Source: Pseudomonas sp. S04 (lineage in GTDB: Bacteria; Pseudomonadota; Gammaproteobacteria; Pseudomonadales; Pseudomonadaceae). From it: a stretch of DNA of 64,000 nt. The DNA lies in assembly GCF_009834545.1 (NCBI RefSeq), contig NZ_CP019427.1:682001-746000 (forward strand), in the 5' to 3' direction. Positions within the stretch are counted from its first letter, which is position 1; every line of letters starts with the position of its first letter. The notes beneath the pieces were generated by a model. That model was not told the DNA's origin. It did no database searches and saw only the letters and a program-made list of their open reading frames with translations. The position numbers were made by a program, and so were the translations under genes. Shown here one piece after another: positions 4,097 to 5,061 of the stretch.

Positions 4097-4487
4097 GGCG
4101 GGCACCTTTGAAAAATATTGATTGCAGCCTAGCGGTCTGCGAGAAGCCCGCAAGTTTACGCGAGCGCGAAGGTTTTGTGGGAGTGGGGTGTGAGCTGGGG
4201 CGAGGGAGCTTGCTTGCGTGGCGGCCTCTGGGGGGGTGTTGGATTAGGCGGAGTACATATCCATTTTTGCGGTAACGGCCACCTATGGTTCCGCTTTTAC
4301 AGCGGCTCACTTTTGGAGGAGCCCAAAAGTAAGCAAAAGGCTCTTGCCCCACCACTTGGCACCTCGCTTGGGCTCGGTGTGCCCTCACTCCGGCTTGAAT
4401 CCGTGGGCCGCCGCCACGCGCCATCCATGGCGCGGGGCGGCTAACCCGGCGTCCTGCCGGGTTACCCACGGCTTCAAGCCTGCGTTC

Positions 4488-4682
4488 GGCCAGCGTGGTT
4501 AACGGGGCGCCCAGGATCAAAAGCCAAAGCCAGAGCCAGAGCCAGAGCCAGATCAAAAGATTGCTGACTTCGTCAGCGTCTTGGGAAGTAGAAGCGACAC
4601 CGCGCATGCCCTAGCGATCAGGTCGGCTTTCAGGCCGCCTCGCTTTGTTTTTGATCCTGGGCGCCCGTTAACCACGCTGGCC
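4488..4682. repeat. Inner near-perfect inverted repeat
   Basis: Arm 4488-4522 and arm 4649-4682 are reverse complements except for one extra G. Both carry GGCCAGCGTGGTTAACGGG and CGCCCAGGATCAAAA. The 126-base centre contains the hexamer array and a GCTGACTTCGTCAGC hairpin near 4562-4576. It lies at the axis of the giant palindrome. Confidence 0.85.
4523..4552. repeat. Hexamer tandem repeat GCCAGA (five units)
   Basis: One GCCAAA unit is followed by four perfect GCCAGA units, close to the axis of the palindrome. Short arrays like this can vary in copy number by slippage. Confidence 0.85.
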
Positions 4683-4789
4683 GTACTCCGATATTGATTT
4701 GGGGGGTAAACCGGCAGGACGCCGGTTTAGCCGCACTGGGCCAGGGAGGGCCCATTGCGGCGGCCCCCCAAATCAATGTCGGAGTACGG
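4681..4789. repeat. Secondary inverted repeat with a central hairpin
   Basis: Arm 4681-4706 and arm 4764-4789 match as reverse complements at 25 of 26 positions (CCGTACTCCGA, then ATTGATTTGGGGGG). Between them is the hairpin AAACCGGC-AGGAC-GCCGGTTT. It overlaps the right-hand side of the giant palindrome. Confidence 0.85.
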
Positions 4790-5061
4790 GCATGCCGAGC
4801 CTAAGCGAGGCACCGAGTGGTGGGGTAAGAGCGTTTTGCTTACTTTTGCGCTGTTCAAAAGTGAGCCGCCGTCAGGCGGAACCATAGGAGGCCGTTACCG
4901 AAGAAATGGATATGTACTCGGACCAGGATCCAGCATCCTGGTCGGCCCAGAGGTCACTACGCAAGCAGGTGCAACGTCGCACCACAGTTGTGTAGATACC
5001 TATGCCCTGCGCGGGCAAGCGGAGCGCCGCCCGGCCCGCTCCCACAAGGTGGATGGTGCAG

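Follow-up and report, generated by a model that had tools for sequence, protein, structure and literature searches.

Organization of the prmA–accC locus

The window, which is the whole 64,000-nucleotide stretch of the Pseudomonas sp. S04 chromosome that was analysed, contains a large palindromic element between prmA and accC. The element was composed of a core, in which two half-modules face each other across a central spacer, and of shell pieces outside the core. It had the following features (window coordinates):

4175..4187, no strand: REP piece on the low-coordinate side, inverted partner of 5035–5047
4195..5004, no strand: whole element (remnant of one shell, the core dimer, and the other shell intact with its end), delimited by flank agreement between copies; low-coordinate end truncated relative to other copies
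4195..4232, plus strand: REP-like piece within the low-coordinate shell, from an alignment of 62 ends by eye; 4211–4232 pairs with 4946–4967
4251..4527, plus strand: left half-module, outer to inner
4385..4487, minus strand: twin-hairpin branch of the left half, Rfam RF01731 TwoAYGGAY, 50.9 bits (gathering score 43)
4528..4643, no strand: central spacer; a run of AGCCAG-like hexamers starts at about 4522
4644..4919, minus strand: right half-module, outer to inner, inverted relative to the left
4669..4802, plus strand: twin-hairpin branch of the right half, Rfam RF01731 TwoAYGGAY, 56.7 bits (gathering score 43)
4987..5004, minus strand: terminal inverted repeat CATAGGTATCTACACAAC, the sole end remaining in the window copy (chromosome 686987–687004)
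5005..5014, no strand: CCCTGCGCGG, the flank where other copies show a 10-bp duplication by sequence comparison; the partner side is lost
5035..5047, no strand: REP piece on the high-coordinate side, inverted repeat with 4175–4187; REP pairs occur in the same gap of relatives

The sequence-only reading had described a nested giant palindrome at 4249..4922. Its outer arms were recovered as three inverted blocks, 4251–4294 with 4876–4919 (93%), 4299–4315 with 4856–4872 (94%), and 4312–4407 with 4765–4860 (78%). The first inner repeat was recovered as 4484–4506 with 4664–4686 (96%) and 4505–4527 with 4644–4666 (91%), and the second as 4678–4706 with 4764–4792 (93%). When the region 4200–4960 was folded, the plus strand gave −558.5 kcal/mol versus −312 kcal/mol for shuffled sequences (n = 20), with a z value of −29, and the minus strand gave a z value of −28 versus 20 shuffles. 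The palindrome is real, and chance is excluded. Its extent had been drawn too narrowly, as the mobile unit spans approximately 4195–5004. The shape was also revised. Instead of a single simple hairpin, the core comprises two inverted units of a module that carries a Y-shaped branch. In the predicted fold of the window copy, the outer arms formed a long stem with three branches, of which the first and the third were the twin-hairpin Ys.

The window copy lacked the terminal repeat that other copies carry outside the REP-like piece at 4195..4232, and by eye its low-coordinate end was lost near 4195. Because one end is lost, this copy should be immobile. It contained short ORFs only, in agreement with the earlier statement that no transposase is present, and the larger ORFs in other copies were part of inserted insertion sequences (IS).

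Copies in the host chromosome

The host chromosome, a single contig of 6.10 Mb, gave 88 matching pieces when searched with the core, and many loci matched on both strands. After merging, these pieces represented at least 34 loci, which is a lower bound because 40 of 99 candidates were scored. The forward pieces showed 79–99% identity to the window copy. The element was therefore dispersed, as the sequence-only reading had proposed as one possibility, and the contrary case that it had named, a single copy with unconserved arms, was not observed. IS-free copies with both ends and the core were 760–898 bp in length, and the longest exact hexamer run of the central spacer ranged from 0 to 15 units across 17 other intact copies.

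In some copies, blocks of the left arm were identical to the right arm. These identical blocks suggest arm-to-arm conversion, for which pairing loss in the other copies would be the alternative. At a 35th locus (1390529–1390657), two shells alone were left in 129 bp, with the core gone and perfect 10-bp duplications flanking. This collapsed copy resembles the expected product of a long-palindrome deletion, and fits the instability that had been expected of such a structure. Elsewhere, the dimer appears to persist owing to the divergence of its arms and to the separation of its inner ends.

Terminal repeats, target duplications and REP targets

The flanks of the copies agreed past the limits given in the sequence-only reading, via mosaic shell pieces, out to CATAGGTATCTACACAAC, and the sequences outside this repeat were mostly REPs. 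At up to two mismatches, CATAGGTATCTACACAAC gave 53 matches in the genome, whereas the reversed control gave 0. All 53 matches lay within the 35 loci, 7 of them 1.4–2.9 kb from the core at loci with an inserted IS. At the same threshold, at least one end was found in 33 of the 35 loci, both ends in 20, and none in 2.

Copies with both ends were flanked by duplications of 9–10 bp, above an orientation-matched control. In this control, partners were shuffled within each flank-orientation class, because most copies share one REP part and their flanks are alike anyway. For 21 copies of the host, 169 of 210 bases matched, whereas 5000 shuffles gave 143.9 on average and 162 at most, and 8 identical 10-mers were found versus a mean of 2.4, a number reached in 2 of 5000 shuffles. 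The 32 elements tested from other genomes had 267 matches in 320 bases (mean 200.6, maximum 232) and 19 identical 10-mers (mean 2.9, maximum 9). A filter for duplicates removed three elements of genome G058 from this test, L284 and L295 (10/10) and L293 (0/10), and the 3.6-kb copy L341 was left out as above the length limit. The duplication was 9 bp in L288 and in L010, which fits after a shift. Seven of the 21 host copies matched at 8 or fewer of the 10 flank positions; apart from L010, these weakly matching copies may be recombinants or old. The targets were mostly in the tail of the REP palindrome, and the host copies L003 and L010 were in non-REP palindromes by eye.

The REP pieces inside and around the element, together with three Y1_Tnp matches in the host genome, would suit a composite REP element of BIME or REPIN type moved by Y1 transposases (RAYT) of the host. 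Target duplications are not expected from Y1 single-strand transposition, and movement by RAYT was set aside because duplications of 9–10 bp were present. The end repeat is also common to IS with a DDE transposase, as described below, and this origin is considered very improbable.

Elements with the same ends and the transposase

The exact 21-base end was found in 9 of 149 genomes of the genus, including the host. Elements with the same ends in other Pseudomonas genomes were 94–549 bp in length and carried duplications. A single half-module was enclosed in the same shell at five loci of four other genomes (L224, L228, L230, L232, and L233), and L305 of G058 (829 bp) contained two inverted half-modules in this shell, with a duplication of 10/10. 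Lone ends were present in G058, G105, and G107, and the loci read there held no transposase-bearing element.

An autonomous element with the same ends was seen on plasmid pANC7924.1 of Acinetobacter sp. ANC 7924 and not in the Pseudomonas genomes searched. This IS (L266, 2501–3870) had CATAGGTATCTACACA at both ends, exact over 16 bases, and a 9-bp duplication by eye. Its transposase of 409 aa matched DDE_Tnp_1 with 36.2 bits (cut-off 23) and the NCBIfam IS4 models with 88.5 bits, below their cut-off of 160. Related IS with similar ends were observed on plasmids of two other species. In Aeromonas media, the ends had 2 and 1 mismatches and the duplication was 9 bp; in Arsenophonus nasoniae, the ends had 1 and 0 mismatches, the transposase gene was broken, and no duplication was seen. 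In Acinetobacter SAAs470/474, one end was exact and the other end was not found.

A search for the L266-type transposase, run with no positive control, gave matches in 0 of 14 chosen genomes, and a PDB search with it gave no match. In Pseudomonadaceae, only remote matches were obtained, in 3 of 398 genomes; two of these had other ends, and the third was a single copy with no clear limits and no end repeat at five mismatches. The host genome contained 11 DDE_Tnp_1 matches, which represented two types of IS, both with other ends, and these were rejected as the autonomous partner. The partner transposase in Pseudomonas is absent, diverged or unsampled. A plasmid collection and a phage collection gave one partial match to the element each, and an ORF of the element had five matches in viral contigs. 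A lone end repeat was located beside apparent tail genes in a viral contig (L220:11706–11723), with no partner end in the locus.

The window copy is interpreted as a transposase-less, MITE-like element because the same ends and duplications occur elsewhere and a transposase-bearing IS has the same ends. We consider it probable (roughly 0.8) that the element is a non-autonomous transposable element, MITE-like but large, that spread in trans and landed mostly in REPs. The earlier suggestion of a non-coding element mobilised in trans is thus well supported by the number of loci, the inverted-repeat ends, the duplications, the transposase-less copy, and the occurrence of these ends on a transposase-bearing IS of a different genus. 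From comparison of the sequences we infer that transposition took place. A DDE transposase of the IS4-like group that recognised these ends would have moved the element in trans. Such a transposase would be of the type carried by the IS on the Acinetobacter plasmid, and may have been lost from the host genome or may never have settled there. Intergenic REPs would be tolerated landing places. The partner transposase not found in Pseudomonas, the one-ended window copy, the two loci with no end, the seven weak flank matches, and the shell-less inverted dimers of other species described below count against this interpretation.

The core module and the TwoAYGGAY family

The core consisted of two modules of approximately 280 bp with their inner ends facing, and the module was found single or paired in other Pseudomonas. 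From 40 modules found, 18 were distinct, and 17 of these, including four from the host, were aligned, with L093 left out. In the RNAalifold structure of the 17 modules, 98.5% of the cells paired, whereas slid versions paired at 34–45%. Both sides changed in 17 of 71 pairs, and the covariation score was reached by 0 of 500 shuffles, although the structure was taken from the same alignment and kinship inflates such counts. One of the five covariation measures was ordinary, with 27 further pair types versus 25.0 (94 of 500 shuffles). Palindrome correction directed by a template could imitate selection on the module fold. The second possibility of the sequence-only reading, a self-folding RNA, would be compatible with this covarying fold and with the TwoAYGGAY scores.

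The same pairing bears on a coding gene, which, like a fold-back artefact of the assembly, is hardly credible as the source of the palindrome. Counterparts of the core ORFs of 48–62 aa were present in most copies, but all of the four ORFs varied in length and three of them were missing from 1 to 4 of 17 other copies, while pairing was kept. A single misassembly was ruled out because the at least 34 loci have different flanks.

The TwoAYGGAY family, to which both branches of the window copy belong by scores above gathering, gave at least 67 matches in the host genome, where 150 of 283 candidates were scored; each of the 67 listed matches fell in a copy of the element. In the genus, at least 58 of 99 genomes had a match at an E value of 0.001 and at least 51 of 99 had a match that exceeded the cut-off, where 25 candidates were scored in each genome; none of 14 control genomes had a match. 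The best TwoAYGGAY locus was taken from each of 30 genomes, including the host, and a half-module was matched by blastn at all 30, covering the hairpin part alone in L310 and at near 69% in L318 and L319. Two facing halves, some partial, were present at 13 of the 30 loci. The same shell was found in one (L305) of 17 dimers inspected, ten of which had been picked from paired matches in G023, G096, and G067. The other 16 dimers, in other species, are shell-less. The shell thus accounts for amplification in the host genome, but neither for the module itself nor for its spread in the genus.

It is possible, but clearly less probable than the reading above is in its own right, that the core multiplies by a route of its own, as a selfish and independent structured module of RNA or single-stranded DNA, and that the CATAGG shell captured it in a few species, including the host. 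The presence of TwoAYGGAY in so many genomes of the genus, often with many matches, the half-module at every sampled locus, the facing halves, and the shell-less dimers in G023, G096, G067, and others are consistent with such a module. Neither a transposition gene nor ends or duplications specific to the module were identified, and old copies may descend vertically, as L335 and L336 have alike flanks in two genomes. This alternative adds to the interpretation as a MITE-like element more than it opposes it. Tentatively, the TwoAYGGAY half-module may be a previously unrecognised selfish nucleic acid of Pseudomonas, self-multiplying, often in facing inverted dimers, and an occasional cargo of DDE-type MITEs that land in REPs.

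Other arrangements of the module were observed. In G045 (L340, L300), two half-modules were oriented alike, which shows that facing pairs are not the only arrangement. A 342-aa ORF lay between two inverted half-modules in L079:1365–3558; judged by a sequence motif, it resembles an IS110-family transposase. In G010, Rfam matches to C4 antisense RNA (53–70 bits) were located near half-modules (L081:881–966, L084:680–767, L086:635–724, and L087:1024–1117); at least those in L081, L084, and L086 were also close to small genes whose products start with MIKxTPNPP.

Insertion site and genomic context

The element was found at the prmA–accC locus in none of 80 named relatives, fetched by PrmA at 94–97% identity; two of them had merely a 34-base match, far from the gap. 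The gap was measurable in 74 relatives and was 162–365 bp in 71 and 1620–1935 bp in 3. These long gaps of 1.6–1.9 kb before prmA (L153, L169, and L200) had content unrelated to the element. By eye, a GTGGGAG-type REP pair was held in 8 of 16 gaps inspected, and therefore the insertion in the window may have hit a REP of that kind.

Four kinds of IS had landed in the palindrome or its relatives (L031–L038, L040–L046, and L261–L264). An IS481-like IS in 8 loci and an IS3-family IS in 4, perhaps 5, loci were inserted at fixed, mirror-image sites in both arms. Another IS3-family IS was located in the middle region of 3 loci, and all four copies of a DDE_Tnp_1 IS were in arms of this or a related module.

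By crude gene calling, none of 32 copies tested was inside a predicted gene. The 28 copies with both neighbours called lay in 12 convergent, 14 codirectional, and 2 divergent gaps, as raw counts with no background rate. In this survey, L031 and L033 were placed from one end and L001 by hand. The absence from predicted genes, the 12 convergent gaps, and the covarying fold of the module would agree with a functional RNA or a bidirectional terminator under selection between genes. The site of the prmA–accC copy is, however, not common to relatives, the REP targets and IS-interrupted copies suggest tolerance, and template-directed palindrome correction can also yield compensatory changes. Such a function is regarded as unlikely.

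Comparison with known elements

MITEs have a size of a few hundred bp. Terminal inverted repeats, target duplication, and absence of a transposase gene were all found here, while small size was not. The element is classed as a large, MITE-like variant because its IS-free copies reach 760–898 bp and its sisters with the same ends are 94–549 bp. As in the bacterial MITEs of the available part of a review, the ends are inverted repeats, the target is duplicated, copies are many and transposase-less, and an IS has like ends (PMC10969869). It differs from them in its length, in the giant inverted dimer in mid-element, and in its REP targets. A Pseudomonas element of this kind was not described in that part of the review (PMC10969869).

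A preference for REPs is shared with ISPpu9, ISPsy8, and ISRm22, the last of the IS4 family; according to the available text, these are autonomous and make duplications of 2, 3 and 6 bp, in contrast to 9–10 bp here (PMC1525189). REPINs, associated with RAYT, are likewise palindromic, intergenic, present in many copies, and involve REP sequences in the part of the description available (PMC3116915). Unlike in REPINs, REPs are the target here, and the ends are CATAGG repeats that belong to a DDE-type element with 9–10 bp duplications; membership was rejected.

In the accessible portion of its published entry, TwoAYGGAY is probably an RNA with no cis-regulatory role, listed from human gut, γ-Proteobacteria, and Clostridiales; unlike in that listing (PMC2864571), the Pseudomonas sequences belong to a module that is repeated and partly mobile. 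The R200 repeat of P. fluorescens SBW25 is described, in the section available, as intergenic, 320 bp, and present in 47 copies, with inverted repeats not listed for it (PMC2718517). Its size and copy number would fit the half-module, and identity of the two is offered as a lead only. By title or start of abstract, the literature gave no description of this element (subscription papers and supplements being outside the scope), and four 15-base pieces of the ends and arms had no match in the text of open papers.

Implications

The element links transposition into REPs with long palindromes, which should be unstable, and with a family of structured RNAs whose role is unknown. Its copies, about 35 long palindromes within a single chromosome including the collapsed one, provide a natural set for studies of palindrome stability, arm-to-arm conversion, and deletion. 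Loci annotated as TwoAYGGAY in Pseudomonas probably represent parts of a repeat. If the module is indeed selfish, TwoAYGGAY in Pseudomonas would be a hairpin of a mobile element and not a regulatory RNA.
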